Of a stretch of 33,196 nucleotides of DNA, positions 3,723-33,196 are shown in pieces. Every line of letters begins with the position of its first letter. The first letter of the stretch is position 1. A program made the translations under genes and the position numbers. The notes beneath the pieces were generated by a model. It did not search any database, was not told where the DNA came from, and worked only from the letters and a program-made list of their open reading frames with translations. The stretch comes from Planoprotostelium fungivorum (Eukaryota; Evosea; Variosea; Cavosteliida; Cavosteliaceae), in assembly GCA_003024175.1 (NCBI GenBank), contig MDYQ01000268.1:1-33196 (forward strand). Reading direction: 5' to 3'.

Positions 3723-3757
3723 CTGAAATATTATATTGTCTTTCCATGTGATAGGAG

Positions 3758-3773
3758 GTAGGAGGCCTCCTAC
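3758..3773. repeat. 16-bp perfect palindrome at the truncated end of the SCCPDH fragment
   Basis: GTAGGAGGCCTCCTAC reads the same on both strands. It lies 36 bp upstream of the first surviving exon of the oxidoreductase fragment and about 100 bp before the divergent start at 3876, so it marks the probable breakpoint. Confidence 0.7.
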
Positions 3774-3802
3774 TTAGTTTCCGTTACACAAACACAATTT
3801 CC

Positions 3803-3810
3803 TTTCCCGC
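3803..3810 (+). promoter_or_regulatory. E2F-type site TTTCCCGC upstream of the NLS protein gene
   Basis: Canonical TTTCCCGC followed by C, 66 bp before the ATG at 3876. Shared with the dCMP deaminase promoter, so the downstream nuclear protein may be expressed in S phase (inference). Confidence 0.4.
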
Positions 3811-3875
3811 CTCCAAATACGATTTCTCTTTGGTTTCACGGAACACGAAAAGCATTTCCATACGAACAGAACATC

Positions 3876-4817: not shown

Positions 4818-5023
4818 AGCCATTTATTCTCTGATAAATATTATTTGTATTATCCTCACCACTCTTCATCACGCATCGTCCTTGTGATTATCCATCGCTG
4901 TCATCGACTTGATCCATCACCTCTGTGATCCGACCATCCATCATCCTTTCCGTCATATCCTCCACTCACACATTCTCTGCGTTACAAAAGTTCCATCATC
5001 ATCATCTTCTCTCTTTTATTGTC

Positions 5024-6709
5024 TTACGGCAGCAAGTGCTGTCTCTCTCCTCCCTCCTCGTTCATCTTTGGCAGCTCAGACGTGGGTCGGCTGAGAGATT
5101 CAAACTTGTGAACCTTGTAGACGTCCTTTCTGGGCACGATGTACACCAACATGATGTCTATGATGACGGTAGCTATGGACAACAGAGCGATACCACTGCC
5201 CAAGCTGGTCACCATGGTGACAAAGTCGAACTGTACGGGTTAGCGAATAGGATGAAATTTCACTCACTTTTCCTCCGGTTCCTGCGACAAGGAAGACGAA
5301 GCGGAGTCCGTATACCTTTGAATAAATCGATATTTAATTCTATTTATTTCTCGACACGTGATGCATGATGATGCATGATGGAGATTGGTTTTGTGTGTTG
5401 AATTGTGTCTCACCTTGTATAGATCTCTGCGTTGGACGTACTGTCCATTCTCAAGGCTTTGATACGTGGAAGTGTATCTGAAATTGTAACCTGGTGAGAA
5501 GGTTTTCTTTGGGTCGAGCTCGTCGACTCTGTCTTCTCATCAGCCTCCATCGTCACATCGCGTCGTCTGATGAGTGAGACTGACCTTCTGAATTGCATCG
5601 TGGCATCACATTCGTCTGGACTCTTATCAAGGTTGCAATCCCAAATCAATGTGCCCACGATAACTGATCGTCCATCATCATCAAATCATCTCATAATCAT
5701 CCATCATCATCATCTCGTTTACAGAAACGAATCGATTGGAAGATGTCTTACGTGCACCGGTCTCCATGACTTCATCTAAGTTGACGTGAGCGGCGTTGAT
5801 GTTGTCTCCCTCCGGAGAACCGTTCAAGATGGTAGAGATGTTGAAGAGGTTGTAGTTGTCTCTGATCTTCGGACCCTTGGCGTTCGATCTGTTCGCGTAT
5901 CAACATCATCACAATGCAAGATGGGGAGACGTAAGATGAGAAGTCGAGAAGGTGATGGAATAGAAGGTGAGAACGTGAAGATGAGAACGTGAAGAAGAGA
6001 TCACGGACACAGTCAAGTTGAAATGCGGAAAGAATCCTGATGCTTTGGGGAAGACGGTGAAGTTTTGAATGCCTTGAAGGTGGATGAGAGGTACCTTGTC
6101 GTTCTCGATGGGGCACCACGCGTAGGCGTAACAACGGTTGTTGATGCACGTATCGTTCGCGATGATGCCTGCTCGATGTGAATGGATCGTTAGAATTCCA
6201 TTGTCCTTCACCTGTTCCCTTCGAGGCCAACGGGACACATGGTGTTGTCTCATCGCAGAAAAGAGTCTTATCGATTGTAGTGCATGTGTCTCTCTTCTGT
6301 CTGAGTGTCGCCACATATGATGTCGTCAAGAAGAAAGCGTTGTCTTCTTTTGGTGGATAGACGGCGTCGAACTCATCCCAATTCTGGATTGTTCCATTCA
6401 CATTCGTGTATGCATTTCCCTTCACTTTGATATTTACGTCTGAACGTTAGATCAGTGATGCACTCGAGCCGTGAAATGATTTACTTCCTGACAACTGGTC
6501 GACTTTCTGATAACCTTTATGCCAGACGATCTGCACTCTGATGGTCGATCAGCCACAGCGTCGTACGTTATATCTTCTCACCCTATAATGTAGCCCAATA
6601 GACCCAAAATGATGAGCCAATTGAGCAATCCCAACTTCCAGTTCTTGATCTCGACCAATTTGACGGTCTTCACGGTCAAAAATCCTTTGACGTAGCCCCA
6701 CATGGCCAT
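5024..6709 (-). CDS. P2X-type ATP-gated cation channel, 384 aa
   Basis: Trimeric ATP-gated channel subunit with two transmembrane helices and a large Cys-rich outer domain. Exons (minus) 6709-6582, 6537-6485, 6439-6212, 6168-6009, 5888-5752, 5663-5585, 5528-5414, 5315-5268 and 5230-5024 join in phase. Diagnostic parts: N-terminal TVKTVKLVEIKNWKLGLLNW leading into TM1; VNIKVKGNAYT with the paired lysines of the ATP site; ECDATMQFRR and GYNFRYTSTY, then DLYKVYGLRF (the Lys before VYG matches the ATP-contacting Lys near TM2). TM2 is LGSGIALLSIATVIIDIMLV. A YxxxK motif (YKVHK) follows TM2, as in animal P2X. In Dictyostelium P2X proteins sit in the contractile vacuole, so an osmoregulatory role is plausible. 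Start is MAMWGYVKGF; Met 2 codons on is equally possible. The splice choice at 6009/5888 is the least certain junction. Confidence 0.92.
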
Positions 6710-12665: not shown

Positions 12666-14543
12666 ATGAAGGGACACCTTCTCCTGTTATCGTGCGTCTC
12701 TATTGCATTATCTCTGACTTACCACGGAGTAAATGAAGCTGGAGCCGAGTTCGCTCCTTCAAATCTTCCGGGTATGTTGAGATAACATCCATCGATTGAC
12801 GTCGATTCAGGTGCGAACAATAAGGATTATGCATTCCCTACTACCTCTTCCATCGATTGGTTCATCGCAAGAGGTGGAAATGTGTTTCGCATTCCATTTC
12901 TGTGGGTGAGTGAACCAATAGAGCGACGACGGTCGCTGATACAATCCAGGAACGTCTCCAACCCTCTTTGAATGGAGCTTTCGACGCAACTTACTTCGGT
13001 CTGTTGGATTCCATCGTCAACCATACTACCAAAGCCGGTGCCTTCGCTCTCATAGAACCGCACAACTACATCCGATACAGAGGTACTCCCATCGGTCAGG
13101 GTGTACGCCACTCCATGCACAGATACCCACTCATCCTCTTACAGTCCGTATCCACCAACGACTTCAAGAGCTTTTGGAAGAGCTTGGCCTCTCGTTATGC
13201 AGACAATCACAGAGTCATCTTTGGTCTTATGAATGAACCCAATGGAGTCAAGACAGAAGACGTGAGAGCCGCCATGCAAGCCGGAATCGAAGGAATCCGC
13301 AGCTCGGGCGCCAATCAACTCATCCTTGTCCCCGGAAACGCCTGGACTGGTGCTCACAGGTGATGCATCTGCATCGTCCAATCATCTCGTGCTCTCTAAA
13401 TTCATCCAGTTGGTTCGATAGTTGGTATGGAACATCGAACGCACAAGTCATGTCCAACATCACGGACCCTCTGAACAACTTCGCCTACGACATCCACCAG
13501 TATTTCGATGGAGATTACTCGGGCACCAACAGGGACTGCAAGGTAATTTCCATCACACCATCACTTCACATCTCGGTCATCGTCCGTCCCATATCCATTA
13601 TCATCATCATCACGTCCATTCGACACCGTCACCATCAAAGCCGTCAACGCATCCTCCAACTCTCGACATCACATCATCCGATCCCATCGTCTTCTACATC
13701 ACACCATCACCTCTCGACTCACCATCACGACCAGAACGGATGGAACACCGAATCTGTCTTTGGCAAATTGACCCAATGGCTCACACAGAGGAAGGTCAAG
13801 GCATTCCTGTCCGAATTTGGATTCTCTCAGGACGAAAACTGTTATCACATCGCAGCGAACGTTCTCGATTATCTCGAGGCACATTCGGACGCTTGGTCTG
13901 GCTGGACGTATTGGGCTGCTGGACCTTGGTGGGGGGACTACATGTACTCCGTTGAACCGTCAGGGTGAGATGAGATGTTTCTTCGTCTCACTTGATGTCT
14001 CGCGATCATCGTGGATGATCGTCCGTCAATGATCGTGTCTTGCGATCATCGTGATCATGACTTCGATCACGCGACATCGATCGTTCATGGATACTCACGT
14101 GACGTCAGAAACGGCGTCGCCGATCAATGGAGACGGGTTCTATCCAACTACATGAAATCCAACGGAAGCGTTCCTACGTCAAAATCCTCCACCACAACGA
14201 AGACTCTGAATCCCACGAGTGAATCCACAACGAGACAGACGACCGTGCAGACGACACAGGTGATGCGAGAGACATCATGAGAGTTGATGAGAAGAGCAGA
14301 TCACATCCAGCACGTCTCAGGTACAGACGACCGTGACCGCTGCCTGCTCTAACCACTACGGTCAATGCGGTGAGATGGAATGGAGAATGTGAGGACTGAT
14401 GGTGAGAAGGTGGTAAGAATTGGAACGGGGCCTTCTGCTGTGAGGCGCCTTACATATGCATCTTCTCGAACGATTGTGAGTTTTCGTTCTCGTCTTCTCG
14501 TATGTAGGATTGAATGTAAATAGGGTATTCTCAATGCTTGTGA
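12666..14543 (+). CDS. Secreted GH5 endoglucanase with C-terminal CBM1, 405 aa
   Basis: Cuts beta-1,4-glucan (cellulose). Exons 12666-12771, 12811-12905, 12950-13102, 13145-13359, 13410-13542, 13735-13964, 14109-14259, 14321-14369, 14410-14475 and 14524-14543 join in phase. A signal peptide (MKGHLLLLSCVSIALSLTYH) starts it. The GH5 barrel shows FRIPFLW, IEPHNYIRY, the acid/base in GLMNEPNGV, DIHQYFDGDYSGTN, the nucleophile in FLSEFGFSQDE, and GWTYWAAGPWWGDYMYS; this resembles fungal GH5_5. A Ser/Thr linker (PTSKSSTTTKTLNPTSESTT) leads to a fungal-type cellulose-binding module: HYGQCGGKNWNGAFCCE, then SNDWYSQCL at the end. The final exon is 20 nt. CBM1 is best known from fungi, so transfer or a shared amoebal repertoire should be considered. 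Confidence 0.92.
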
Positions 14544-16515: not shown

Positions 16516-18755
16516 TTATTTGAGCGATAAGATCTCACGGACCCTCTCTTCCTTCAGCGCGATCTTCTTTGCCAACTCGACTCGATTCAATCCATCTGGA
16601 TAGATTCCCGTCATTCTTCCCTTCTCCATCAACACTTGCATTCCGAGCCATCTGTCGTCCTTCAGTTCCACGATCTACAACGATCACGACCTCGCCAGAT
16701 CGTCTGAGACTTCTACGGCCAATTTCTGAAGGGCCAGAGGTAACTGATTGACGGGCACCTTCTTAATGTCATATTTGACGATATCCCTCGTTTTCCGGAG
16801 ATATCCTCTATCTTCAACTGATCGTCTCTATCAGTCCAACGTGATGATGACAATGTGCACGAAGATGGATCGTGATGATGATGACATCACCTGCCATGGC
16901 TGCTAATGAGACGATGGGTAATCTGCTCTCCGTTCCTCTTACTGGAAGGTGAAGACCATATCCTTCTTGCGTCATACCATTCCACAGAGAGGTATACAAA
17001 TGAACCCTTTCTTCAGGATCGTTCTCGTCAACATTGAGGGTCAGCTTTTCCGTGTAATTCAACCAGGCAGGATGAAATTCGAATAAGAGTTGTCGAAGGG
17101 CCCTCCGAATGCATCTGTAGGACATCAGCTCTACATCTAGTAGACTCTTCACCTCTGATACGCAGGAGCACCCTTCTTTGAAGATGCATTGTTCCTCTTG
17201 CCACCGAACAATGTGTCGAGGTATGCGTTCAATCTAACGTTCACTCTGAAATTGTCCTGGAAGGAATTCGATCGAAAACTCGAAGAGAATCCGTTCACCT
17301 TCTCGTGCGTTAACGTTTCCAATCGGTCGGATAACTTTTGAATCTTCTCGTAGATGAGATGACTCGTGTGATCGACTTGTTGCTTCATCTCCTGCCACAG
17401 ACCAGTCCACTCTGTGGGGTATCTTCTGAAGGTGTTCATATTGAGGAGAGTCTGTCGTGGAGTCAGTCTCGATGATCTCGATGATGATTCAATGTTGATG
17501 TCGATCGTGATGTAGGTCGTGATGGATAGATTTTGTTTCGGTTGAGTGTCGAATTTGTGATGAGAGAGTCTCACGGTGGTCTGGTGGAATTCTGATTCTA
17601 ATTTCTCCATGAATTTCGTCTCCTGCTCTTCCGTCACCATTAAATCACGCATCACATCACATCACGCATGTGACTCACCCATTCTTTCGTCATTTCCTCT
17701 GTCATATCCACATGAAAGACAGTCTCCCTCCCCTCCACCATCAGATTCATCTTACCCCACTCCCCCACAAACATCTCGATGACGACTGAATCCTGCAATC
17801 CCATCGCGATGTGAGGATATTGCACTTCTATCGAATGTCACTCTCACACTCGACTCTTCACACTCTTCACCTCTATCCAAATGTCCTCCAATCTGATTCG
17901 TATACGCCCTCAGACAACTCAGCCAGGGAAAATAACAGAGAACGCGCTCGTGTAATTTTGCCACGAAGCGACGAGCTTTGTCGTAATCTTCTCCCCTTAG
18001 GCTGATCTCTGGTTCGAGGAAAAAGCTTCCCGCCACGGGACTGGTGGAGGGTGAGAGGTGATGAAAAGTGCAGCTCACTTGTCTGAATCCAAGTTGGAAT
18101 GTTCACAAGAGAGGTGACAGAAGGTGTAGTATAAGATCCGCCAGAAGCAAGGACGTCGGACGCCCTCGAAGCCGATCTTTTAAATTTTGAACGTCGGATT
18201 TTGGCGGGAACACACCTGACTGCGCTGACTCCATCTCATAGCGTGAACGTCCCAAGCCGAGCAAGTGGCCAGATTGAGTGTGTCGAAATTGACAAACCTA
18301 CGATATTTCATTTCCCGCCAAAATTAAACATTCGAATTTCAAACCCACCTTTCTCGTGTCTTCTTCTCCCACAAGATATCACTCTCCAGTAGCTTGAAAA
18401 ACGGTAGAGAAACGGTAGAAAACTCACAACCCCAAGACGATTGCCCCACGATCAAATCCATGATGACTCGTTGTAGTTCGATGGGTAAATCGAAAAAAAA
18501 TCGAAATGATTCTCCTTCTGGTCGCTGCAAGTGTAGAGTCTGACTCACTGTACACGTCAGAGACGTAAGATGTCACGTGATCACATGTTAAGAAGCCATT
18601 CTGTACTGCCCACTCTTCACTCTCTCTACTTCGACTCAGCGGTGATTCCAATATTATCTGTATTTGGGTCAACTACAACGCGCCAGAACGAAACCTACCT
18701 CGGTTATACTTCTCGTCGTTTTCTGTGTGAGAGATAGAGGTATGGGTGTGTCCAT
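16516..18755 (-). CDS. F-box protein with long uncharacterised C-terminal region, 602 aa
   Basis: Exons (minus) 18755-18699, 18672-18556, 18524-18349, 18297-18216, 18176-18079, 18040-17871, 17827-17679, 17622-17153, 17114-16891, 16817-16711 and 16674-16516 all join in phase. Residues about 67-110 look like an F-box: FFDLPIELQRVIMDLIVGQ, then SLPFFKLLESDILWEKKT. The remainder (MGLQDSVVIEMFVGEWGK; IYEKIQKLSDRLETLTHEK; HPAWLNYTEKLTLNV; IALKEERVREILSLK) is unrecognised, rich in helices and charged. I start at Met 18755 because the first two exons lack any later in-frame Met before the F-box. A different start (18234) in another frame also joins in phase downstream but would drop the F-box. The relation to the upstream ankyrin-like gene is unclear (see findings). 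Confidence 0.7.
18202..18318 (-). promoter_or_regulatory. Two E2F-type motifs in consecutive F-box gene introns
   Basis: GGCGGGAA at 18203-18210 (minus-strand TTCCCGCC) and TTTCCCGCCA at 18311-18320 lie in two neighbouring short introns of the F-box gene, about 110 bp apart and in opposite orientation. They share the flanking AAAAT/ATTTT with the copies in the myosin and SCCPDH introns. Either regulatory or a recurrent intron motif. Confidence 0.35.
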
Positions 18756-20119
18756 GTTGGCCACGATCTTCTTGACCGACTGTCGATGTGTCAATCTCGC
18801 GATGTGTCATCGTGATGGACAGCACATCGAGTCGGTGGTTCATGCGACCGTATTGTAAGACGAGGAGAGTGAGAAAAGGTAAACCGCAGAGGATGCAACG
18901 GAAACCTTCGTTTTGACACAACACATCAACCATCTCGGGCTGCATCATGTTAGAGACACGTTCATCTCTTTCCATCACGAATCTCACCGTGATATAGAAT
19001 GTGAGATCTTTGAGCGAGTGTGCGAAGTTCTTGGCTATCATGTTTGGATGATGCAAGAGGAGAAGCATCATCTGATTACCAATCACACATCGTCACGCCG
19101 GTCAATGAATCACCTCTACGCACTCGGAAGTCACGGCCCATTGAAAGAGATGTTGGGCTTGAAGGATATCATACCTATTCATTTCAGCCTCCCATCCCTT
19201 TGACTCATGTGTCACCTGTGTTCTTGAAAGATCATCTCCACCACATCCACTCGACCTTCTTTATACACTTCGATCAAAACAGAAGAGATCGCGTCTGAAT
19301 CAAAGACAACATCATCTCGAGACAAGATCATGGAGAGGTACAAGATGTCACCGACCAGTATCCAATTGGAGACAACATCGACTGGCACCCATTGGCTGGT
19401 CACAAGATTGATCATGTCCTCCCTGGCATGCTCGATGGCCAATCGAATACACTACAGACTGTCAAGATTGTGATGGTGGGGAAGTGATGCACCTCGATTG
19501 GATCGTAATCGCCTTCGACGAGGAAATCGAGAGCAGCAATGAGAAGTTCTATGTTGCCAATCTCGATGCACCAACGAACGATCTGTTTGACTTCCAATCT
19601 TGAGTCTGGATTAAGTTCAACATATGAAAGGGGACGATCATCGTTCGTCACTTGTAATCTCATAGAGGAGATAGTTGAGAATCGGGATGCTGCGTCTGCC
19701 GATGGCTTCTCTGATGGAAGTGTACTTGAACATTAGAATATTCCTGTCCTTCGCAATTGTTACACCACTGTATAACGCATTGAAATTGATCTCCTGATTT
19801 CACATCATCAAAGTCTTATACTGTGCATTTCTCACGGCTGGTTGCAGTGTGTTCTCGTCAGGATCATATGGTTCTCGTCTATCCTTGTCATCCTCTAAAA
19901 AGAAGATGCGAATCTCCTCCAAGATCGGATCGAGTTCCACATCAAACTCTTCATTCCTGGGCCTTGTTTCAAAAGGAAGGTCTGAACTGAAACGACTCAC
20001 ATGATGCAGGCGAGCTACTGTTTGCCTCTACGACAGTGTACCTCCGAACCACATTCGGTGAACCACCCAGCAAACTGAGAAAGATGATCACCATAAAGAG
20101 ATTCGGGTAACAACAACAT
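18673..20119 (-). CDS. Ankyrin-like repeat protein, about 386 aa; 3' end uncertain
   Basis: Exons (minus) 20119-20019, 19986-19804, 19767-19652, 19605-19493, 19451-19216, 19174-19114, 19071-18988 and 18939-18673 join in phase. The N-terminus is MLLLPESLYGDHLSQFAGWF, followed by an acidic region (LEEIRIFFLEDDKDRREP). The rest is a run of paired helices in the style of degenerate ankyrin repeats: IGNIELLIAALDFLV, ILYLSMILSRDDVVF, GRVDVVEMIFQEHR, SECVEMMLLLLHHPN. This pattern is common in amoebal ankyrin/F-box families. The last exon as given runs to a TAG at 18673; an alternative is a 25-nt intron near 18800 that would lead into the next gene, making one long ankyrin plus F-box protein. Confidence 0.6.
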
Positions 20120-20325
20120 CTATCACGATCACACCATCCACTTCTTGTATGAAAGACTTCATCACCGCGTTTCACTTGTGTTGAATTTCGAAATTGATGA
20201 AAGGATATTAGATGATATATAGATTTCAATGATTTTATTTCTCATTCTCTCAGCCTGTCATTCCTCCGGCAGCCCCGATAATCTTCCGACATAACACACA
20301 ACACAAGACAGGAGCATCGATCACG

Positions 20326-21963
20326 ATGGCTGGTCAGACCCTCTTCGTTTTTCTCCTCGTCGTTCTGTCGGCATCAGCTGTCGTCCGTTGCCTGAATAAC
20401 GAAGGAAAGGGTGTCGATTGGTGGTACGTATCGCGGTCGACAGGTCATCTTCTAAATGATTCGAAGGGTCATCCTCAAATATCCAATCCTCAGTCAAGGT
20501 GGAGATGTTGGATCAGGATTTGCATATACCTATGCCGATGCAAAGAGCCCAAGTTTCAAGGTGACAACGTATATTTCACATCAAAAGCTGATATTCTGGG
20601 CAGTACTCTTCTCTTCGTTTAGATTCTGATGGAGCTATCCCCAATACCCTGAATCAAGTCTATAACAACAGCGGCAGCGACTCCATCGGCTACCTCATGT
20701 ATAATGGTCGGTGACATCTTCCATACACCACGCGTGTGATTGTCTAAAAGATGAATCCCCCGATGGATCTCAACACGAGAGCTTCGCACACATGAAGGGT
20801 GTCATGGGATTCGACAGCAAAGTCGGATTCCTCCTCTCCCACAGTGTCCCTCGCTGGCCTCCCGCATCTTCAGACTCATACAACTATCCAGATGGACAAG
20901 CCGTCTATGGACAATCTTTCTTATGCCTCTCTCTCTGTATCCACACTTTATCATCGATCGTCTATGACGATTGAGAAGATGATCTCTTCCATCACATAAA
21001 TGGATCAGATTTTTCTGTTCTCCTTGACTTGTGTAGCCACACCGAATCTGGATCTCGTCGGGGGACAGCTTCTCATCGATAAACCCCACCTCTACGATTC
21101 CAACCTGCCAGATTCCATCACCACCCAGAACTTAGCTCAAGTCGTAAGCTCTCAATGGATCAAGGTGATGATCTCCTATCTGCATGTCCATGTCATTCCA
21201 AACCAACATGCATCATATCGCATCTTCCATCATCAAATCTCTCATCTTTCCCCTCTCAACTCCTCTACAGGACGGAACGACCAACTTCATCACCATCAGC
21301 ACCCTGGCTGGAGAGAAATTCGACGTCTTCGCAAAGAACGAGGAGGCAGACGTGGAGCTGTGGGACGATGTCGTGGAGCCACAGTACCAATCGGGTATGC
21401 TCGTGGAGAGCTGGATGAACGGTGGTCTGAAGAACAAGGTGATGGAGAATCCGTGGGAGGAATTGACACCGTGGGACAGATGCCGACGGTCTGTACTCCC
21501 GATTCCAAGTACAACACGATGAACGTCAGGACGGTGGCACCGATGGATGGTGTCCAGTGGACAGAGACGAAGGATCACAGTAAATGGGTGAGCGTCGTAT
21601 TCTCTTCTCTTGTCTTCATCATCATGACATCACATCACGATCATCATCAGTCGATCATCGATGCGAACCGTTCTTTCATCTCCTCGATGACGATCGCGAT
21701 CGCATCACCACATCATCATCGTGTGTCGAATCATCCGCTGATCCATCATCTCGCAGGCGGTCACGACTGACGTTCAAGACGTCTTCTGCATCGGAGACAT
21801 CAACCGTCAATTCTCACAGGCCAAGAGAGGAGGTGGAGCGGTGAGTCAATCACAGATCTCTATCGATCAGATCTGACGTGAAGGATAGATCTGTGGAACA
21901 GTCTCCAGCATCTGGAAGGACTTGACCGGTTTCGTCACCGAATCTGACCCGTGTCCCAATTAA
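20326..21963 (+). CDS. Deoxyribonuclease II, 347 aa
   Basis: Acid endonuclease of lysosomes or phagosomes, digesting DNA of engulfed prey. Exons 20326-20423, 20467-20560, 20604-20706, 20751-20936, 21037-21164, 21271-21438, 21480-21587, 21757-21840 and 21889-21963 join in phase. Signal peptide MAGQTLFVFLLVVLSASAVV. Family hallmarks in order: NEGKGVDWWVILKYP, SGFAYTYADAKS, the first catalytic His in SFAHMKGVMGFD, GFLLSHSVPRWPP, YGQSFLCLSLS, the second catalytic His-Lys in TKDHSKW, and FCIGDINRQFSQAKRGGGA near the end. The first catalytic motif has HMKG where mammals have HTKG. Length matches the family. Introns 20424-20466 and 20561-20603 were chosen because they alone keep these motifs in frame. 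Confidence 0.93.
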
Positions 21964-22849
21964 TGTACGAGTTGTAGTCCTTTCTATCGTTATCGTGAAT
22001 TAGAACGTGACGAACGGAGATGCGATGTGTGTTCGTCTGATGATGAAGGTGATCATCGTCCAGGAGACTCAGACCGTCCTCTTGAACATTGATGTCGGAG
22101 TCAAAGCACTCAACAGTTCGTTAGTTAGGAAAAGATGACATTTCATGGAATTCATATTCTTGTTGAATGTACGATGAGGATATTTTTTGTATTTCGAATT
22201 CTATCTGAACAAGTGCACTGGTCACTTGGGGAGAGAGGAGCCTTGAGTGTATCAACACTTCTTCATTCCACAGTTTTGGATATTTTTGACCCATTCGCGT
22301 GAGTCATTGCGATCGATGTCATCGATCACTATATCATATGCAGGAAGAGGATCTCACATGCCCAGACAGGGTCTATCACTGTTGTTCGGGGAGATCTGCG
22401 ATATCATCGGCCTTCTTTGAGCTCACACCAGCCACTCTAATCATCGACACCAATCGGCTGCCGATGAACGCACAGAGAAGACTGCCAAGCCACAATCGCC
22501 ACTCGAACGAATTGTTTTAATTCCAAATAGGGGTTTAAATCTCACAGCGTCACATCTGAAAGCTCATCGGTCACCACCCCAATACAACGAAGAGGAAGCA
22601 CATCGACGAGGTACATGGAAGGGGACTGCTACAACCCGCCCAGGAACAGAGTCACCTCCCAATGTGGCCGTCGCTGAAGCTGCGAACTCGATATAGAGAT
22701 GAATAGTAACACGTGTCTGTGTGTTTCTCGCTTCTCTGTCCTCGAGAAGATGACGTATTAGCAATATTCGTGTGGAGACGAGATAGAAAAGGATCATTGA
22801 GTGATGAAACTGTTGAAAAGAATAGAAGGAAGAAGTGTCGAATGAAGTC
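21964..22849. other. Gene-poor stretch left of the transposon; weak minus-strand frames
   Basis: A minus-strand open frame at 22564-22797 (MILFYLVSTRILLIRHLLED) and another around 22400-22510 (LGSLLCAFIGSRLVSMIRV) are hydrophobic and could be fragments of a membrane protein, but no consistent exon chain links them. A plus-strand 32-codon frame near 22045 is too short to trust. No repeats seen. Confidence 0.3.
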
Positions 22850-22873
22850 GACAGCAGTGAGGTTTGAACTCAC
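22850..22873 (-). pseudogene. tRNA-Ser 3' part (T arm and acceptor strand), left of the transposon
   Basis: On the minus strand 22873-22850 is GTGAGTTCAAACCTCAC followed by TGCTGTC: a perfect T arm and the 3' acceptor strand, identical to the intact tRNA-Ser at 27671-27763. No matching D or anticodon arm lies within tRNA distance upstream; instead the transposon begins. Its 5' partner is at 27900-27839 on the same strand. Confidence 0.85.
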
Positions 22874-23256
22874 ATATTGCCCGTTTTCGGGACCTGCCGC
22901 TCCTTTCTATGAATTTTCTGGAGCACTCTAAGAAGAAAACATGGGCAAATAGATCCGTACCGCAAAAGGCTTATAACATCACCCTTTTCTATCCAGATAC
23001 ACACAGGGATCTGGATGAACGATCGCATCGTGGTGTCTGAAAGAGGCATGCGAGAGCCGGGACGAGATCATAAAGGATTTATTCGAGCTATTTAATTCGA
23101 ATTATTTATCTACAATTCAGCAGTGGAATTCGTTTCGAGTAGCTTCTTCACACAAGGTACACGCTTTCACGTGAAGATAATACAAGTTCCTTCAACGTCA
23201 GAGACTTCCACTTCCCAAGGAGAATCTTTTGGCGGTTGTTCATCTGAGTCATTGTG

Positions 23257-26200
23257 ATGGACGTCCCACCAATGGCTACCGAAGAGGATTCTCAAAAGAG
23301 AGAGGTGAAATCTTATTACATCTCCATAGGTTCGTATGAAATTGCTTACAAAGAGCGAAGAAGCACCGACCTCTCACGGCCGCGGAGTGGGCGGCTCATC
23401 GTCAACACACATCGAACACGACTAGAAGAAAAACTATCGACGAGAGGATTGGAAGAGGACAGGTCAAGCCTGCGCCTGGAATGTCTGTTCGTCCCACGGT
23501 TGGAGTGGCAGAGGCAGTGCAAAGCAATCTGTGGGAACTCGAAGTATCCAAGAGAAAGATAGCCCGCCTTGAGAGTGGCAATCGTGTGTGGACTAATTTC
23601 ACATACCTCCGAGAGAAAGTCGGTCTACCAGTCACAGATAAGAAGTGCATGAGCCTGGAGGTGAATCGTCGCGTGATGTCACATTTATTTACGAAGATAT
23701 CCAGGACGCGAAAAATCTAGCCGTCCACCTCTGTTTGGTGAGGAAGATCAAACCCAAGACTGCCGAGACATTAGTTCACGATGCCCTCCGTTACCAGAGT
23801 GAAGTTCTCGTGAGTCTTTCCGATGGAAATCACCTCTCTGATGATACGCAGGGTCAGACTACCATCGCCTCTGATCCCGAGAAGATGAAATCTCTGGTCG
23901 CCATATTCTGGAATATGTCCTATTATCACATTCGAACCACCACCAAACAGGCCATTCCCATCTTGAAGAAAGATGTAGATCATGCCATACAACAGTGCAT
24001 CACCGTGGATAAGAAGATGGACGCAGCGGCGATAGCCACTCTTTGGGCCACCGCCGGAAGATTTGATTCCATGCAATGGGTCGCAGGAGAGGACCTCGAA
24101 TTCCTCACGGAAGAGTGCGACCAAAAGCATGTGTTCAGTGGATTCAACCTCAAATACAACAAGATGAAGGTACGGGACGAACCGTTCAATCATTTGAACT
24201 AAATATCGTTATAGCAAGGATCGACCGAGGGACTCACGTATCACCTACAAGATAGAGATGTGGACAATCCCCTCAGCTTTTCCAGATGTCTCGTAGACTT
24301 GCTGATCGAAAAGGACTGGCTGGTATTCGTCAGCGACGACAGTCCCAACAGAGTCAACATCAATATCACGGAGGATCACGAGACTACGACGTGAGTTTGC
24401 CCGCATCCTTCTTTTATTCATAACAAATCAGAGAACCGTCCGGTCCAGAAGACACATCGTCCGTGACGGCCGACTCCAATACTGGAAAACAGAGACCGAG
24501 AGTCACGATCACGCCGCAATCTTTCTCCACGTGTGTCACCTCTAATGTAAATTTCTGATCTTGGACAGTGAGGAGGAGAGAGAGGAAAGAAAGCGCAGTG
24601 CACCAGAGGGAACTCCCGAGCCCGCTGAGAAGCGTCAGAAGATCATCAGGACCGTGAAAAGCTTTGAGGAATTCAAGAGGGGAATCGCTCTTGGGCTTGT
24701 ACCAGAGATCGTAGAATTCGCACACAAGCAATGGCTCTTCACGTGGGACAATGGTACATTTCAGGGAAACCTCCTCTCGAAATTCTCCATCGCCAAGGGC
24801 AAAGCTAGGTCCACTGTGGTTTCAGAAAACATGATGTACAACCACTACAGAGGAAAGAGGAGAACAATCAAGCAGATGAACGACTTCCTCAACGAAATGT
24901 TCCACGTCTTTGGATTCAAGGAACACGTGTTCACCACTCGATCTTTTCGGCGCGGAAAGATCACGTCGATCGCCATCCAACGCTTTTTTCGTAACGGAGG
25001 AGGATGGAAGGAAGGAGATATAGAATATATCTCGGATGCTATGGGATGGCGCGACAAGGGTGAGCCGTCCATCATGATGCTTCATCACGACTTCCCATCG
25101 TCGTGACACGACATCTCATCATCACCATCTCAATCTCATGACCTCTCACCAGAACACATCAAGCGTTACATGGACAACGTTGTCCGTCAACTGAGATCGT
25201 TCACTGATCTCGATTCGGACATCTCTGACGATGAGATGCTGGCGAGGATGAAACAGCGCTTCCTCTCTATTACCAACGATCACCTGCTGCGAGCTTACAC
25301 AAAGGTAATTCTCTTCTTGTATGGAATTTCTTACTTGGAAACAGAATTCGAGCTTGAATGTGATGGATCATATCCTCCAATCCATCATCTCCGCCTTTGA
25401 CGAAGAAGAACAACTTGTAGAGCCATCCGAGAAAGAGGTGAAGATACCTAAATATAGAAAATTGAATCATCTCCTCAGGAGGAGACGGCGGAGTTGAAGG
25501 AAGTCAAGAGACTGTTTGCGGAGCAGGAACAACTGATGAAGAAATACGGACAAGAATACGAAGAAGACATCGCCATAGGCAAGGAACAAAGCAGTCTGTA
25601 CCAAACCATTCTCTCAGCTGCCGAGACTGGACGTGAACCCGATCTGATGGAATACTCCCTTCAGGAAGTGGAGAGCTTCATTGCCGAACTCACCTCGAAA
25701 TTTCGAGCGAAGAAGTTGGAGCCAATCATGATACGAGTGAGCGAAGGATGGACGATGAGGAGTGAATGATTCATATATAGATCTTGGCGAAATGGTCCGT
25801 TGAGAGAAAGGTACACAAGCAGAGCAGGGAGAGACAATCCGTCAGCAGTCTGAAGGAATGGGAGGAGAAGGCAAGTACGATGGTACACACGAATTACGCG
25901 AACAAGAGCATCAAAGACATCGACCCAAACTTCCGCAAATTCTTCTCCAAAGCCATGGATCCACAATTCAGAGGTGATCGTTATCGTCTCCTCGCGATGT
26001 CTGCTGAAGGGCGATTCAGATGTGATGGCCAAGCACGTCTTAACGGCTGTCCCCAAGGAGAGGCAGAACGATCGAAAGCACATCGACAGTTGTATCATCT
26101 CCTACCTCTTTGGAAAGTACCACACAGTTGCCAAGGACATCTCTTTCTTACAGAGGTGGCACAAGATCTTCAGAAACACCGGAATCAACCCCGTGGTGGT

Positions 26201-27393
26201 GCGTCCCTCACATTCCGTCGTCTACATCCACGGCTGACGCCACACAGAAGGGGTTCTGCGTGCAGTACGCACAGCATCACTTCAAGAGCGAGTTCAACCC
26301 CAACTTCCAAGTCGGCGATGTTGTCATCAGGAACCCCCACAAGAACAAGCGCGCGACCGATGAAGGCTACACCCCTCTGCACAGAGAAGCGCAGGAGAAG
26401 ATGTACGACCTATTCAAGGGTCCCATCCCTCGTCTGACGGCATCCGGTGAGAAAATGGAGAAGCTCAGAGCCATACACACCGAGTTGGAGATACCACTCA
26501 CCGAGATCGAAAAGTCGAGAACCAAGTACAAGTCCGTGCTGCAGGTACGATTTATCGGTTCAGTTCTCCATCTGAATCTTCCAGCGATCGGAGGAGAAGA
26601 AAATCTCCTTCGCCGAGGCCCTCGCAGAAGTCTTCGACTACCACAACAACCGCCGCGCCGGCTCTGCCGCCTCTGCCGCCCTCGATGCCTTCTTCCCCCC
26701 CGACAACCCACCCACTCTGTCCACATACAACAAGGCCATCACGAGCCTCACCCCCGTGGAAAGAAAACACATCGAGAAGAGGAACCTGGGATTCAACGGT
26801 TACCTCAAGCAGTGGAAGAAGAAGCACCCTTCACCCGCCCCTCAGAAGAATCTTATGCAGTTCTTCAAATCCAACGACGACGACAAGGCCCCAGCCGAGG
26901 CGCTCGATATGGAGGAGGTAATACCCTACATGGACGAGACACTCTCCGAGGCGCTCGATATCGATGAGGAAATACCTGAGGCCCCAGCCAATCCGATCCA
27001 GGTGTCTACGATGCTTTATCGCGAGACGCTGAATGATCATCGCAGCTTGCCGTCATGACCGACGAGGACATGGAGTTGTTCAACGCGGCACCTCAGGAGT
27101 CCCTCTTTACATCCAACAGTGCCAACTATTTCGGGGAGGACACTTGTGCTCCCAAAGAGAGCGCAGACGCCACCACAGAGAACATTGGCAATATTCTCCG
27201 TGCCGCACAGACCCTCCCTCTCAACTTGGAGCTCGCAGCGCAGGAGGGCGCTCACATCGCACAGTACTGCACGAAGCTGATGGCCGACCCCGAGGGCGTC
27301 ATGAGCACCACTTGGAAGAGCTTGCTGGCCGAGAGTCGAGCCAAATTCAGGGCTCTCTTGCAGAATATCTCAGCAGATGCCACTCACGTGTAG
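23257..27393 (+). CDS. Tyrosine recombinase of the transposon, 1157 aa
   Basis: Fifteen exons join in phase without a stop: 23257-23304, 23361-23660, 23705-23809, 23852-24169, 24215-24390, 24432-24530, 24569-25059, 25153-25304, 25345-25437, 25479-25736, 25781-25973, 26020-26198, 26248-26544, 26585-27001 and 27046-27393. Catalytic motifs in order: ATAGRFDSMQW (first Arg, about residue 221), TTRSFRRGKITS (the HxxR box, with R in place of H, about 473-476), ISDAMGWRDK (Trp of the H/W position) and HIKRYMDNVV (nucleophilic Tyr, about 518). Between the first Arg and the second box lies a long linker of about 250 residues that includes an acidic/basic stretch (EEEREERKRSAPEGT). The region after the Tyr, about 640 residues, is helical and charged with a basic segment (FNGYLKQWKKKHPSP), perhaps DNA-binding. 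Crypton-type is the best guess; a search is needed to fix the family. Confidence 0.75.
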
Positions 27394-27670
27394 GTTCACA
27401 CTCGTAAGGGAATCAAATACAGTTGAATTGTGAATTTGGTTTTTGTGTGATGGTGTGGCGGGCTTCGCGTGATCGCAAGTCATGAGTTTAAAAAAGTGTT
27501 GGTGTTTTGGCCATCACATTGATGCGCCGAATCTATCTACACGCAAGGACCTCACGCAATTTTGTTGTGGGCTCTCGCGTTGCACCGGATGCAAGAATTG
27601 GAAAAACATTGACAGCACAGAACAGAATTGAGGGGAAATATCTAAGCAGGCCTGAGCCTCCAAACATCTA

Positions 27671-27763
27671 GACAGCATGGCCGAGTGGTTAAGGCGGTAG
27701 ACTTGAACCTAAAAAAGTCATCTACTATCTTCGGATTCGTGAGTTCAAACCTCACTGCTGTCG
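27671..27763 (+). tRNA. tRNA-Ser(UGA) with a 12-nt intron
   Basis: Acceptor stem GACAGCA pairs perfectly with TGCTGTC; D arm GGCCGAGTGGTTAAGGC (A box); anticodon stem GTAGA/TCTAC around CTTGA, anticodon TGA at 27704-27706; T arm GTGAGTTCAAACCTCAC (B box). A 12-nt intron (27708-27719) sits one base after the anticodon, the canonical place. The variable arm (TATCTTCGGATTC) is long, as in class II tRNA-Ser. A run of six T at 27766-27771 is a Pol III terminator. It lies inside the transposon, 68 bp from its right edge, and points opposite to the disrupted tRNA-Ser. Confidence 0.9.
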
Positions 27764-27765
27764 AG

Positions 27766-27771
27766 TTTTTT
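27766..27771 (+). terminator. Pol III terminator of tRNA-Ser
   Basis: TTTTTT two bases after the tRNA discriminator base. Confidence 0.75.
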
Positions 27772-27838
27772 ACCTGCTACTCAATGTTTCAAGAAAAGAT
27801 GTCCCCACTATAACTTGTAATTTACCGTCATCCTTCAC

Positions 27839-27900
27839 GATGTTATCCCATAGGGAACCAGATTTCAAGTCTGGCGCCTTAACCACTCGGCCATGCTGTC
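27839..27900 (-). pseudogene. tRNA-Ser(UGA) 5' part (acceptor, D arm, anticodon arm, variable arm), right of the transposon
   Basis: Minus strand 27900-27839: GACAGCATGGCCGAGTGG (acceptor and A box), then anticodon arm CCAGACTTGAAATCTGG with anticodon TGA, then variable arm TTCCCTATGGGA. The next bases (GTGAAGGATGACGG) do not form a T arm: only GTGA is right, the B box is missing. The acceptor strand fits the 3' part at 22856-22850 perfectly, and the two parts would make a normal 86-nt class II tRNA. Unlike the intact copy it has no intron. Confidence 0.88.
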
Positions 27901-28338
27901 TTGGTGTTTGTGTCCACTTCACGGCGGGAGTAAGCTCAGATTATTGTAAATAATTGGTTAAAAAGCTCGATTTTACTGTCTGTCCGCACTCAAGGATTGT
28001 TCAAAGACTCTTGTGAAGTAGAGAAATCATGTACTTATATTTATCCATCCATCCTTGTCCATTCAATATCCTGCTATTGAGAGTGAGATCATCCAATCAC
28101 ACTTCACTCAGACAAAATTTATACATCTCCAATGATCTTCACTGGAGTGAGTCATCACGTATGACCTTCTCTTCCAACAGAGGTGACACAAAGGATTTGT
28201 TCTCCCTCCCCCTTCTTCTCTTCACGGCTGAGATCCACCTCCCTGCCTCAAACGGCAACAGCAGAGGTGACAAAAATAGATCCACCACGACCCTCCCCAG
28301 CCCCATTTGACTGTAATGCTCGCGGACCTTGCGAGGCG
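27901..28338. other. Intergenic, right of the transposon
   Basis: No tRNA, repeat or firm exon. A minus-strand stretch about 28186-28290 could be an alternative C-terminal exon of the 7TM gene (donor at TCG/GTGAGT, acceptor near 28312), but the resulting tail is short and low in complexity, so I left it out. Confidence 0.35.
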
Positions 28339-29515
28339 TCAGCCGGATGTTTCGCAATCTCCGCGGAATCTCCGCGGACTCACCGAGGGGGTCACAACGA
28401 CGTACACGATGCAATCGAGCATGGCAATGTATGATATGGTGTGAAAGAAGATCTGTTGGGTTGAATGGTTTGAATGGAAGGGGAGAACAAATGCTGGAGT
28501 CCATGCGATGACGGTGCTGACGAGGAAGGCGAAAGCTCTCAACCTCGGAAGCTGATGATGGGGTGAGTGTGGCGACGTGTGCAGATGATGGTGATCGGAT
28601 GATGCGATGATGGATGATGTGATGATGAGTAGTGAATTGATGATGGACAATGTGATGATGAATGGTGTGATGGTGGGTGGTGGAGAGAGGGGAGGTGATC
28701 GTGACGCAGACAATGACCCACCTTGGTTGCGATAATCTGATAGGATCTATGTCGTCTCTTCTGTACTTCGGACAGCTTCCTCGTGAAGATGATGTTTGCA
28801 GCCAGCATGAATACTGTTTCATTTGTCAGCCACACATCATGATCGATCGCTCACGATCGAGACAGATTATAGCGATCATCTCCCATAACAGAATGTACAA
28901 TTGTTCCTCCTCCATCAAAGCCGCTATAGCCACCAAGCAGGGTGGTATGAAGATCACCGACCAAATGATGCTCATCCACATTGTCCTGCTCATTCGTATG
29001 GACGTTCTCAACTCGTTCGATTCCATGTCCGGCGTGGATAAACTTAATATGTCAGCGATGAAGAGAATCGAAGAGATCGAACGTACTATGATAGGGCGAT
29101 TCGTAATCCGTTAAGGGAGACCAGGGACATTCCAATCACCCAAACCATGCGAGCCATCCAAAGACATAGAGCCACGACGTTCATCCAGAAACATTTCTTC
29201 TCGTGGCATCTCTCACGACTGAGGCCGCAGCTGTAACATTTTGTCGTCCCGAGAAAGAATAGAGTGGTCGAAGAGATAGGGATCCACAATACGTGGACGA
29301 AAGCAAGAAGACCGACCATCTGGTAGAGTCATCTACCGATATGATGTATCAATCTTCACCAGAGAGATACCCTTTCCTTTGCCCTTTCGAAGGCAATTCA
29401 CCAGCATGAAGCAGGCGGCGAGAAAAGAGACGATCTGAGTGTATATGAGGGGGCTCAAATCGGTGTAATCTTCATCATTCTGTGGTGGATTTTGTTGTAT
29501 CCGTCGGTGATCCAT
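28339..29515 (-). CDS. Seven-transmembrane receptor-like protein, 293 aa
   Basis: Exons (minus) 29515-29360, 29319-29087, 29042-28855, 28813-28722 and 28551-28339 join in phase. Seven hydrophobic helices can be counted: YTQIVSFLAACFMLVNCL; VGLLAFVHVLWIPISSTTLF; VVALCLWMARMVWVIGMSL; WMSIIWSVIFIPPCLVAIAA; LYILLWEMIAIICLDLFML; AFAFLVSTVIAWTPAFVLPF; FFHTISYIAMLDCIVYVVV. The N-terminus is short and polar, the loop between helices 2 and 3 has a Cys cluster (KCYSCGLSRERCHEKKC), and the loop before helix 6 is strongly basic (RKLSEVQKRRHRS), as in G-protein-coupled receptors. The family is not recognised. The intron between the last two exons (28721-28552) is full of CATCATCAC-type repeats. The C-terminus depends on whether a further splice occurs. 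Confidence 0.65.
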
Positions 29516-30328
29516 AGATCGACTTTGTTCGTGACGATGGTCTAACAGCTCATACTAGACCCGACGGATTATTCTCACTTTTTTTGTAATTGCATCACTG
29601 TAGAAGACAGTTGTAAGAGGCGTAATCCACCGAGACGAACTGACCGTCACTCTGAATGTAACTGTTACGAGATCAAATACAAATGGGTTACGCACTCAAG
29701 CAACGAGCAACGATGAGATGTTTCAGGAGTTTAAATTTCACCACCACCGACGAAATTGGACGATGACAGAAGAGATGAAGGAAGGCGTCTCGCCCAACAC
29801 GACGATCTCGTCATCTAGCGTACGAATCTATGAGGCAGTTCGACGTGACACACTTGTAGAAAAAAAAAACATCGTGTGAATCTTGTCTCATAACGGTTCA
29901 TCACCAAATACCATCTACACCAATCATCTGACGACGCACATTGCAAGTGACACGGATGCACGATGAAGCATCACATTCGGAAATTTATCTCACAGAGAGG
30001 TTCCTCTCACATGCGCGGAACCAGCATCAACACAAGGCCCTGAAAGACAATCTTTCACATAGATATCCGGTGCAGGGGTCATGTTCTGTCCCATCGTTCG
30101 GTCGTTGTTCTCATGCATGCTCTGCTCGTGTTCGGCGATTTCCGATACGTAAATAGAAATGTGGGCGAAAATAACCACCCCGGAGGCTTCCCTGGTATTC
30201 CCGTGTGCATGAGGTTTACCAGCCCTCGGGTACGACTGGTGCAGGTCCTACGGCCCGATTCTACTCTCCTCTTCCTCATTCTCTCATCTCACGAAAGACA
30301 ACAATACAACACGAACACGAACGTTACC
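29516..30328. other. Intergenic, about 0.8 kb, no gene supported
   Basis: Divergent spacer between the 7TM gene and the GH72 gene. Short open frames (for example 29941-30156 plus) have no family resemblance and no splice partners. Contains an A run at 29860-29869. Likely promoters and leaders. Confidence 0.4.
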
Positions 30329-32564
30329 ATGAGACACGCACTGACCCTTCTGATGGGTTTCCTCTGCTTGGCATTGGCCGTCAACCCCATCACCGTGAGA
30401 TGAGATGCGTTCGATGGAAGACTCATCTTCTCTCAGGTGAAAGGAACCAAGTTCTTTGATAGCGTCACCGGCGATCAGTTTTACGTAAGTGATGCTTCGT
30501 ATGACACCTCGCTGAACCTCTACAGGTCGTCGGAGTAGATTATCAACCCTCCTCAGACCCTATCGCCGACATTGCAGGCCTCCAGAGGTGGAGATGCATC
30601 ATCCTGACATCTCTCGATCTCATCTCTCACAGAGACATTCCCCTCTTGAAGGACTTGGGTGTCAACGCCATCCGAATTTACACTCTCAACGTCCAGTCCG
30701 ATCAATCACAAGGCATGCAACTCTTAGAGCAGAATGGCATCTACGTCATCTTCGATCTCTCTTCATCTTGGGCTTCCATCAACCCCCAGAATCCTCAGTG
30801 GAACACGGACCTCTTTGCAGCTTACCGACAGAAGATCGACCTCTTCCGATCTCATGCCAACACCCTCGGTTTTCTCGCTGGAAACGAAGTCATGAACGGC
30901 TACTCGGACACGGTCGCTGCTGCCTTCGTAAAAGCTTCCGTGAGAGACTGCAAGACTTACATCAAATCGACCGGCAGGGCCATCCCAGTTGGTTACGCCG
31001 CCACCGACATCGATGCGAACCCCAACATCATGAACTATCTCGACTGCAAAGACGTCGAATCATCCGTCGACTTCTACGGCCTCAACACCTACAGGTGCGT
31101 AGACGCATTGCATCGCATGCGTTGATGATCGAGTTGACCGCGTGACAGGTGGTGTGGTAACAGCAATTTCGATCAGAGCGGCTACTCCGCCTTCGTGGCG
31201 CAATGGAAGAATTACGATGCTCCAGTCATATTCACCGAATACGGTTGCAACCAGCCCTCTCCGAGAGTCTTCACTGAAGTCCAAGCCATATATGGTGATC
31301 AGATGACAGACGTGCTGTCCGGTGGCTTCGTCTACGAATATTCGCAAGAGGTGAGGTGGAATGATGAAACCTCTTCTGATGCATTCATAGGCCAATGGTT
31401 TCGGCCTCGTGAAGATTGATGGAACCACGGCGACAAAGTTGACGGACTACAACAACTTGCAGACTCAGCTGAAGAGTATCAATCCGAAGAAAGTTCAGAT
31501 GAACAGCTACAACCCTACACCCAATGCTGTCGTGGCTTGTCCTCCCGTCAGCTCAGCCTTCTTGTCGTCCGGCGCCTCTCTACCTCCAACACCAGATGAC
31601 GCCCAGTGTTCTTGCGTCTACAACGCTCTCGAGTGCGTCACGGTGAGTTCACGTGATTTCGAGATATCGAATTTATCTTCGAATTTAATCTCATTGATTC
31701 CAGGCCACAACCGATCCCAACCTCATCTCTTCTACCATCGGTTACATCTGCAGTGTGATGTCTTGTCAAGACATCTCCACGAATTCGACGACTGCCACCT
31801 ACGGAAGCTTCTCCGGCTGCTCTGACATCCAGAAGTCTTCCTACATACTCAACGCCTACTATCAGATCTACAAGTCTCAGGGAAGCTCGGCCTGCTCTTT
31901 CAACGGTGCCGGCAAGATCGTACAGCCGTCCCGTCAATGCACCGGGCCAGCACCGACCACCCAGCTGCCTTCCACCTTCACTCCGTCCACGGTATCCACT
32001 CAGGCAGCTCCCACGACTTCTCCATCAGCTTGCACGGACATGTACGCTTCCCTCACGTGCCGCACGTACTCTGAGGATCCGAACAAGGTTGGAGTAGCCA
32101 AGATCACCGATGCCATCAATTACGTCTGCGGCCTCAAGCCTTCGTATTGTAGTGCCATCACCAACGGACAGTACGCCAATTGTAACGCCGCTGAGAGGGT
32201 CTCATGGGCCATCGATCAGTACTACCACGACAACGTGGCTCAGGGAGCTTCTGCTTGTGATTTTGGGGGCATCGGCTCGCTAGCAGCTACCAGCACAACT
32301 TCGACAGTTCAGAACGGTGGAACGACAAGTGCAAACCCCACCAGCAGCGGTGGGATCTCGTCTGAGACGACGGCTACACTTTCCGTTACTCCAACGAGCT
32401 CTAGAGGTTCTACTGCAGTAACAGAAGCGATCACGAGCAGCGCCGGGCAGGAGGACACGAGGACTTTTACAGTATCGACCACTCAGGAGAGGGGACAGAC
32501 GACTTCATCAGCCACCAGATTTCTCCCCGCCGTCTTCTTTGTATTCGCAGTCGCTCTACTCTAA
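30329..32564 (+). CDS. GPI-anchored GH72 beta-1,3-glucanosyltransferase with two X8 domains, 650 aa
   Basis: Elongates or cross-links wall beta-1,3-glucan (Gas/Gel/Phr family). Exons 30329-30394, 30437-30484, 30526-30587, 30633-31094, 31149-31350, 31391-31642 and 31704-32564 join in phase. Signal peptide MRHALTLLMGFLCLALAV; start of the catalytic domain VKGTKFFDSVTGDQFYVVGV; LKDLGVNAIRIYTLN; acid/base in FLAGNEVMN; SSVDFYGLNTYRWCG; nucleophile in VIFTEYGCNQPSPR; GGFVYEYSQE. Two X8 (CBM43) modules follow: CSCVYNALECV to YGSFSGCSDIQKSSYILNAY and ACSFNGAGKIV; then CTDMYASLTC to YANCNAAERVSWAIDQYY and ACDFGGIGS. A Ser/Thr-rich stretch and a C-terminal hydrophobic tail (FLPAVFFVFAVALL) indicate a GPI anchor. 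Fungal GH72 enzymes have at most one such module, so the tandem pair is notable. Confidence 0.93.
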
Positions 32565-32735: not shown

Positions 32736-32806
32736 GGCTCTGTAGTTCAGTGGTAAAATACTACCTTAGGGTGGTAGTGCCTCGGGTTCGATTCCCGACA
32801 GAGCCC
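32736..32806 (+). tRNA. tRNA-Pro(AGG)
   Basis: Acceptor stem GGCTCTG pairs with CAGAGCC; D arm with GTTCAGTGGTAAAATAC; anticodon stem CTACC/GGTAG with loop TTAGGGT, anticodon AGG; T arm TCGGGTTCGATTCCCGA. A TTTT at 32811-32814 would end Pol III transcription. No intron. Confidence 0.93.
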
Positions 32807-33196
32807 CTCCTTTTGCTGTCCCTATCCCAATTTTGGGGTAGATATCATATCTACCTACGCAACCTCGTTGTAGAGAACTATTTCCACGTAGCTGGATACC
32901 AGTGGACAGGTAATAGATGATTGAGTCCATGATCGCACATCTCTCGCTCATTATATGTATCACATTGTTGGAACATTTAACCTTGACATGAAAGATAGAT
33001 CAAGAAGATTGTCGTTTCGTTTATTGATCAATTGCAGCCTCTTAGTCTTCAAGTTCGTATAGCTACGGTATATCTGAAAGAACCCGCACTCCTGACTGAT
33101 GAACGAATGTGATTCAGACAGTCACCATTAACTGGAACCGCCGGTCTGATCAGTTGATAATGTGAGGATCCCTCAGTTCTGAAAGCTATCACAGGC
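32807..33196. other. End of window, no gene supported
   Basis: Follows tRNA-Pro. No exon chain, tRNA or long repeat apart from the short palindrome at 32837-32855. Confidence 0.4.
32837..32855. repeat. 19-bp palindrome downstream of tRNA-Pro
   Basis: GGTAGATAT, a central C, then ATATCTACC: two perfect 9-bp arms around a single base, 31 bp after the tRNA end. Meaning unknown. Confidence 0.7.

Follow-up and report, generated by a model that had tools for sequence, protein, structure and literature searches.

A divergent tyrosine-recombinase-like gene inside broken tRNA-Ser genes of the amoebozoan Planoprotostelium fungivorum: a candidate low-copy mobile element

Contig C223 of the 36.86-Mb, 471-contig genome of Planoprotostelium fungivorum (Amoebozoa, class Variosea), a stretch of 33,196 nucleotides (nt) referred to here as the window, contains a tRNA-Ser(UGA) gene broken in two by an insert that holds one long gene, PROFUN_14437. 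On the minus strand, the 5' half of the tRNA gene runs from 27900 to about 27845 and the 3' half, comprising the T arm and the acceptor, from 22873 to 22849; the 4.97 kb that separate them also carry an intact tRNA-Ser(UGA) gene on the plus strand. This split had been proposed from the letters of the window (the original prediction) and was borne out, as was the perfect pairing of the acceptor strands, GACAGCA with TGCTGTC. A second locus, on contig C294, shows the same plan, and thus the split in the window is not a chance event. We lean towards reading the two inserts as copies of a low-copy amoebozoan mobile element, with a divergent tyrosine-recombinase-like protein, that lives in tRNA-Ser(UGA/CGA) genes. 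Site-specific integration in tRNA genes is recognised by features seen here: a recurrent breakpoint, copies present at one locus and absent from its counterpart, and confinement to a single tRNA group.

The original prediction pictured a simple disruption, overlooking both the intact inner tRNA-Ser gene and the displaced tRNA 3' halves that were found behind other tRNA-Ser genes. Together, these indicate a repeatedly recombined tRNA-Ser site rather than a gene that was merely interrupted.

Two long copies and their counterpart loci

The features of the window insert, from left to right, are the following.

22849–22873, minus strand: left edge of the insert, a tRNA-Ser 3' half with T arm and acceptor; flank as in the last displaced 3' half of contig C414; homology with C414 ends at 22873
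22874–23104, no strand: left non-coding tail; mostly unrelated to the C294 tail, the inner part alone being similar
23272–27393, plus strand: recombinase-like gene PROFUN_14437, 1137 residues; at least 13 introns, of which the 12 mapped ones align with those of the C294 copy
24569–25059, plus strand: exon with the second catalytic box (RSFR, MGW); Y498 lies in the next exon, 25153–25304
27456–27670, no strand: 215-nt spacer from the end of BLAST homology, which is soft by some letters, to the intact tRNA gene
27671–27763, plus strand: intact tRNA-Ser(UGA) with a 12-nt intron, within the insert and inverted relative to the broken gene (ARAGORN, Rfam)
27764–27842, plus strand: first half of a spacer unit known behind other tRNA-Ser genes; ends just past TTCACG, where it meets the broken 5' half
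27843–27900, minus strand: broken tRNA-Ser(UGA) 5' half; recognisable tRNA letters end at about 27845

When the genome was searched in six frames with the catalytic exon, a single further place came up, C294:1957–2487, with 73% identity, and the DNA of the two copies is 78% identical over window positions 23105–27455. Contig C294 is short (10.7 kb); its tRNA features are as follows.

154–176, minus strand: tRNA-Ser 3' half, left of the gene
5075–5165, plus strand: intact intron-bearing tRNA-Ser(CGA), after the gene
about 5467–5536, minus strand: broken tRNA-Ser(CGA) 5' half (18.3 bits, Rfam)

Both long copies therefore share the order 3' half, gene, intact inverted tRNA-Ser, broken 5' half, and both broken 5' halves stop at the border between the variable arm and the T arm. 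Other copies flanked by tRNA-Ser parts at the same position had been named beforehand as a check, and the sole other long copy found fits. The proposed use of this junction by a eukaryotic element is thus in line with both copies; the identification of the element as a Crypton did not hold (see below). The GTGA that the original prediction saw at both edges is present in the window, but C294 has no shared GTGA, and a plain Crypton insertion, with GTGA as its target repeat, is ruled out as a general rule.

Neither half in the window was called as a tRNA on its own by ARAGORN, or by Rfam at its gathering score. For the inner tRNA of C294, ARAGORN made a call with no clear anticodon, and a focused Rfam scan gave 49.7 bits (gathering score 29); the absence of this tRNA from a scan of eight stretches was a filter loss. 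The two inverted 5' halves of the window, 156 nt apart, are unlike each other in the anticodon stem, the intron and the variable arm. By its flank, the left-edge 3' half (22873) matches the last displaced 3' half of C414 and is not the gene's own 3' end. The inner tRNA-Ser(UGA) of the window has an intron like the CGA genes, other intact UGA genes (C414, C450) being intronless, and it is possibly a mosaic of two tRNA-Ser types. In C294 the T stem of the inner tRNA-Ser(CGA) reads CAGAG/CTCTG in place of GTGAG/CTCAC; the CTCTG change recurs in the displaced 3' half that follows this gene (both within 5075–5387), as if the two were kept alike.

A search of the genome with the whole protein added one weak place beyond the two copies, on contig C43; copy counts from these searches are lower bounds. 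In tblastn this relative matches the N-terminus as far as R201 and also C-terminal segments, residues 203–677 of the window protein being missing. It lies on the minus strand in C43:147000–151000 (about 957–2297 of that stretch), some 750 nt from an intact tRNA gene that reads by eye as an intron-bearing tRNA-Met and was assigned to SeC by ARAGORN.

Each long copy has a counterpart locus without the gene. On either side of the insert, C414 and the window are 97% identical (18174–22010 and 28098–31225, among the stretches matched), with 93% identity over 22684–22873, where the match ends at the first T-arm base; in C414 the tRNA-Ser(UGA) is intact, two further 3' halves lie behind it, and there is no recombinase-like gene. 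C113, the counterpart of C294, has an intact tRNA-Ser(CGA) and likewise no recombinase-like gene; the two contigs are 99.4% identical over 717 bases, 94.8% over the next 515 and 80–84% near the tRNA. Empty sites, also named beforehand as a check, were therefore found in the form of gene-less loci with an intact tRNA-Ser, but both counterparts carry further rearrangements. From the end of flank homology to the tRNA gene there are 1.4 kb in C414 versus 187 bases in the window, and C294 and C113 differ by additional pieces.

A difference between haplotypes alone was considered as an account of the element and set aside: C414 matches both sides of the insert, yet no second copy of window positions 4000–6500 was found in the genome. 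With this part of the window single, C414 may be either an allele or a segmental duplicate. A stretch of C414 upstream of the tRNA gene (about 3552–4210 of the examined piece), with no equivalent seen at the corresponding position of the window, is bounded by inverted similar sequences (AAGGACCTGC...GCAGGTC) and is probably another transposable element.

Displaced 3' halves and the T-arm border

Copies of the tRNA 3' end were found 192–198 nt behind the intact tRNA-Ser at C4, C113, C414 and C450, C329 being without one. A displaced 3' half accordingly stands behind four of the five tRNA-Ser(UGA/CGA) genes that carry no insert, versus none of 61 other tRNA predictions, some of which are doubtful, two of which have less than 450 nt behind them, and which were drawn largely from best-scoring matches. 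This count covered 66 ARAGORN predictions in 46 stretches, and the last 24 nt were sought with at most 3 mismatches within 450 nt behind the gene. In the sample examined, displaced halves are confined to the tRNA-Ser(UGA/CGA) group.

When 11 displaced or edge 3' halves were lined up, the tRNA letters were found to start at the T-arm border with unrelated letters before it, except in one half of C414 (C414-1) that agrees with the tRNA about seven letters further upstream; the line-up shows where similarity stops upstream, not an absence of shorter pieces. As the displaced halves start at the same border, this border is a recurrent breakpoint, as in the integration of bacterial islands in tRNA genes. 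A complete tRNA-Ser lies in front of seven of the nine displaced halves that are not edges of a long insert. At C116:269411–269652 a spacer unit lies between two tRNA-Ser 3' halves, and no 5' half was found in front; C113 holds a remnant of a 3'-half module, also without a 5' half.

The spacers of about 195 nt between tRNA-Ser genes and displaced 3' halves are related to one another and are here called spacer units. A search with the C4 spacer returned four places including itself, all of tRNA-Ser type, in a search that was not exhaustive and missed the known units of C414 and C450. At the latter two loci, direct repeats of about 32 nt extend from GTGAG through the T run. The motif TCACG lies 70–73 nt into five of eight units and 71 nt into the half unit of the window, and it is the inverse of the CGTGA found at the T-arm border of most of these tRNA-Ser genes.

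Parts of the unit also occur at the edges of the long copies. The stretch behind the inner tRNA of the window corresponds to the first half of the unit (score 62 against C4, reached by none of 200 shuffles), and the left edge of C294 to its second half (score again reached by none of 200 shuffles). At the left joint of C294 (about 287–306), where the second half of the unit meets the left tail, there is a perfect palindrome of 20 base pairs (bp), AATTAACAACGTTGTTAATT.

The recombinase-like gene and its product

The original prediction described an apparently unbroken gene with all motifs of a tyrosine recombinase. The gene is indeed open, but it is divided by many introns and has R453 where the histidine of the catalytic tetrad is expected. 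Twelve introns were mapped in PROFUN_14437, the deposited protein implies at least one more, and the 5' end of that protein is unlike the mapped gene model. All 12 mapped introns align between the copies; 11 have GT-AG borders in either copy, and the remaining one has a GC donor in C294. Across the 891 codons compared, which start at 24215, the rates of synonymous (dS) and non-synonymous (dN) change between the copies are 0.40 and 0.19, a ratio of 0.47, with 70% amino-acid identity over the same codons, and the 12 introns are 75.5% identical (414/548). The protein has thus been under selection, and non-coding DNA should still be recognisable.

The order of motifs, read by eye, resembles the R-K-H-R-H/W-Y layout of tyrosine recombinases: TAGR201, K235/K237, RSFR456, MGW489 and Y498, with the R, R and Y of the R-H-R-Y tetrad kept in both copies. 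The spacing of 9 from W489 to Y498 equals that from H333 to Y342 in lambda Int, the letters at both lambda positions being confirmed in its sequence. Slices of 200 columns of the two-copy alignment were compared by hhalign with six tyrosine recombinases (lambda Int, Cre, FimB, FimE, XerC, XerD). The top five places (21.0–21.6) went to the five slices that hold Y498, the next best reaching 15.3, and the best alignment, a weak match, pairs Y498 with Y342 of lambda Int.

Among 5.77 billion proteins no homologues were found besides two P. fungivorum proteins, and one of these searches had a length limit that shut out even those two. The protein had no match up to E = 10 with any transposase family, with the Crypton type in Pfam (DUF3504, GCR1_C and similar) or with DUF3435, the family of the Starship captains; none of the phage-integrase families of Pfam was found in the P. 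fungivorum genome. We consider the product a very divergent tyrosine-recombinase-like protein, with putative catalysis, mobility and mechanism.

Elsewhere in the window there are gene pieces for a GH72 glucanosyltransferase and an X8 domain (30594–32564), a GH5 cellulase piece (13363–13968), a DNase II piece (21184–21522) and an intact tRNA-Pro(AGG) (32736–32807).

Ends, mechanism and relation to known systems

The copies cease to match in BLAST some 60 bases past the stop codon. Both inner tRNAs lie about 215 nt beyond this point, and the counterparts show no intact tRNA at that position. As the ends and spacers of the copies are unrelated, the ends of the mobile unit are undefined, and the inner tRNA may have belonged to the locus rather than to the element: either the gene body landed about 215 nt before a resident tRNA, or the tRNA is part of an exchangeable end. 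The inner tRNA-Ser as shared cargo was thereby weakened, the spacers before it being unrelated and the two inner tRNAs belonging to different tRNA-Ser sequence types.

For the mobile element that we favour, insertion would cut tRNA-Ser at the variable-arm/T-arm border, which would serve repeatedly as a recombination site. The recombinase-like protein, a plausible agent by its position and motifs, would make the joints by conservative site-specific recombination, perhaps via a circular form, and the spacer units may be remnants or small passengers of the same family. Full-length copies would break their target gene and come to lie with an intact inverted tRNA-Ser, so that the locus would keep a potentially working gene. 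A more specific version, which we hold only tentatively, is a site-specific recombination system with the T-arm border of tRNA-Ser genes as attachment site, by which halves of these genes are exchanged: a small unit would supply a new 3' half and leave a functional gene, the full element would break one tRNA-Ser and bring or keep an intact inverted one to compensate, and the inverted CGTGA core in the middle of the unit may allow a 3'-half segment to be flipped or swapped. Such a flip between inverted CGTGA cores fits the window and rests on five letters.

Several observations weigh against a mobile element. Just two long copies were found, one of two has the GTGA repeat, and neither counterpart is a clean empty site. 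No terminal sequence is common to both copies: the 215-nt spacers are equal in length and unrelated (score 17, shuffle mean 17), the stretches behind the inner tRNA show no similarity between the copies, and neither the right end of C294 nor the left tail of the window has significant likeness to the unit (best result matched in 8 of 200 shuffles for each, in 16 comparisons each). The C294 gene has one in-frame stop in the mapped reading, the deposited C294 protein beginning after it, and the C43 relative lacks the catalytic part and is not among the tRNA-Ser sites. As to the enzyme, R453 replaces the tetrad histidine in both copies, the hhalign probability stays below 2% (best slice, E 0.028; another run, P 0.059), no recombinase match was found in Pfam, PHROGs or NCBIfam up to E = 10, and the catalytic exon had no match among Protein Data Bank (PDB) sequences up to E = 1. 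Finally, the displaced halves were sought with patterns that start at the T-arm border, and later-starting pieces would be missed.

Much of this would suit a resident, perhaps domesticated, gene beside tRNA-Ser, with splits produced by ordinary rearrangement among similar copies (inversion, gene conversion, segmental duplication) and a protein that takes no part. The unrelated ends, the locus-specific look of inner tRNA and spacer, the rearranged neighbourhoods and the 3'-half modules without a 5' half at C116 and C113 agree with this explanation, and purifying selection is expected of a host gene too. Homologous recombination should, however, break at scattered points and not at one point in 11 cases; moreover, presence and absence between closely related loci were seen twice, and the gene occurs twice, inside tRNA-Ser both times. 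We regard this explanation as rather unlikely, though the most serious of the rivals. The approximately 32-nt direct repeats at C414 and C450 could also be target-site duplications, spanning GTGAG to the T run, that an unrelated small transposable element left when it inserted downstream of tRNA-Ser genes, with the recombinase-like gene falling into this rearranged surrounding later. This is improbable, as the tRNA letters start at the T-arm border in the 11 aligned cases, long-insert edges included, as long duplications of constant extent at a single sequence are more usual for attachment (att) sites, and as the C4 unit was found only at tRNA-Ser places, within the limits of that search. An assembly artefact, through chimeric inverted joints or collapsed tRNA repeats, seems least probable of all: inverted 5' halves so close together resemble inverted chimeras and C294 is a short contig, but the two 5' halves of the window differ such that one is not a copy of the other, and the same plan occurs on two contigs whose DNA is 22% different.

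tRNA genes are classic landing sites of bacterial and archaeal integrases. The present loci resemble such integrative elements in the use of a tRNA gene as the site, in a fixed breakpoint within it (both long copies) and in having displaced 3' ends downstream of intact genes, which the small units show here. They differ in lying in a eukaryote, in the intron-rich gene, in the breakpoint at the T-arm border and in the intact tRNA inverted inside the insert; the target is also not restored, the 5' half staying broken in both long copies. According to a review on archaea, integration targets are classed by variable loop, tRNAs with a long variable arm forming one class, an intact tRNA is restored after integration, and pTN3 uses an att site in the 5' half (PMC8371274).

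The claim that the insert is a Crypton failed on the absence of any Crypton, Starship or phage-integrase family match, of the tetrad histidine, and of common ends or a direct repeat. Like Cryptons, the element is eukaryotic, has a single recombinase-like gene and shows no recognised terminal inverted repeats; unlike them, it has R for H in R-H-R-Y and no common terminal direct repeat of 4–6 bp, and its termini are not firmly defined. The R-H-R-Y tetrad is among the Crypton criteria in the portion consulted of PMC3212892, in whose main text, as far as available, the word tRNA was not found. Dada DNA transposons insert inside tRNA genes, tRNA-Ser included, as the present element does (PMC8869645). 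They have a DDD/E transposase and sites around the anticodon or at the A box (nt 8–13), whereas the break here is at the T-arm border and the protein has no transposase match.

The TRE elements are retroelements that lie near tRNA genes and not in them. They are amoebozoan retrotransposons of Dictyostelium that seek tRNA genes (PMC5006619). Among the papers listed for Cryptons, Starships and tyrosine recombinases with tRNA or Amoebozoa, in a literature that included few subscription papers, no tyrosine-recombinase element in eukaryotic tRNA genes was found, nor was one described in the available portions of PMC10871703, PMC12220804, PMC8869645, PMC3212892, PMC5006619 and PMC8371274. The habit is well known from bacterial islands and was not found described for eukaryotic tyrosine-recombinase-like elements.

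If the enzyme does act at the T-arm border, the habit of living in tRNA genes would have arisen again in a eukaryote. Such an activity would account for the broken and duplicated tRNA-Ser parts of one genome, and it would offer a recombinase whose short natural target is present in few copies.

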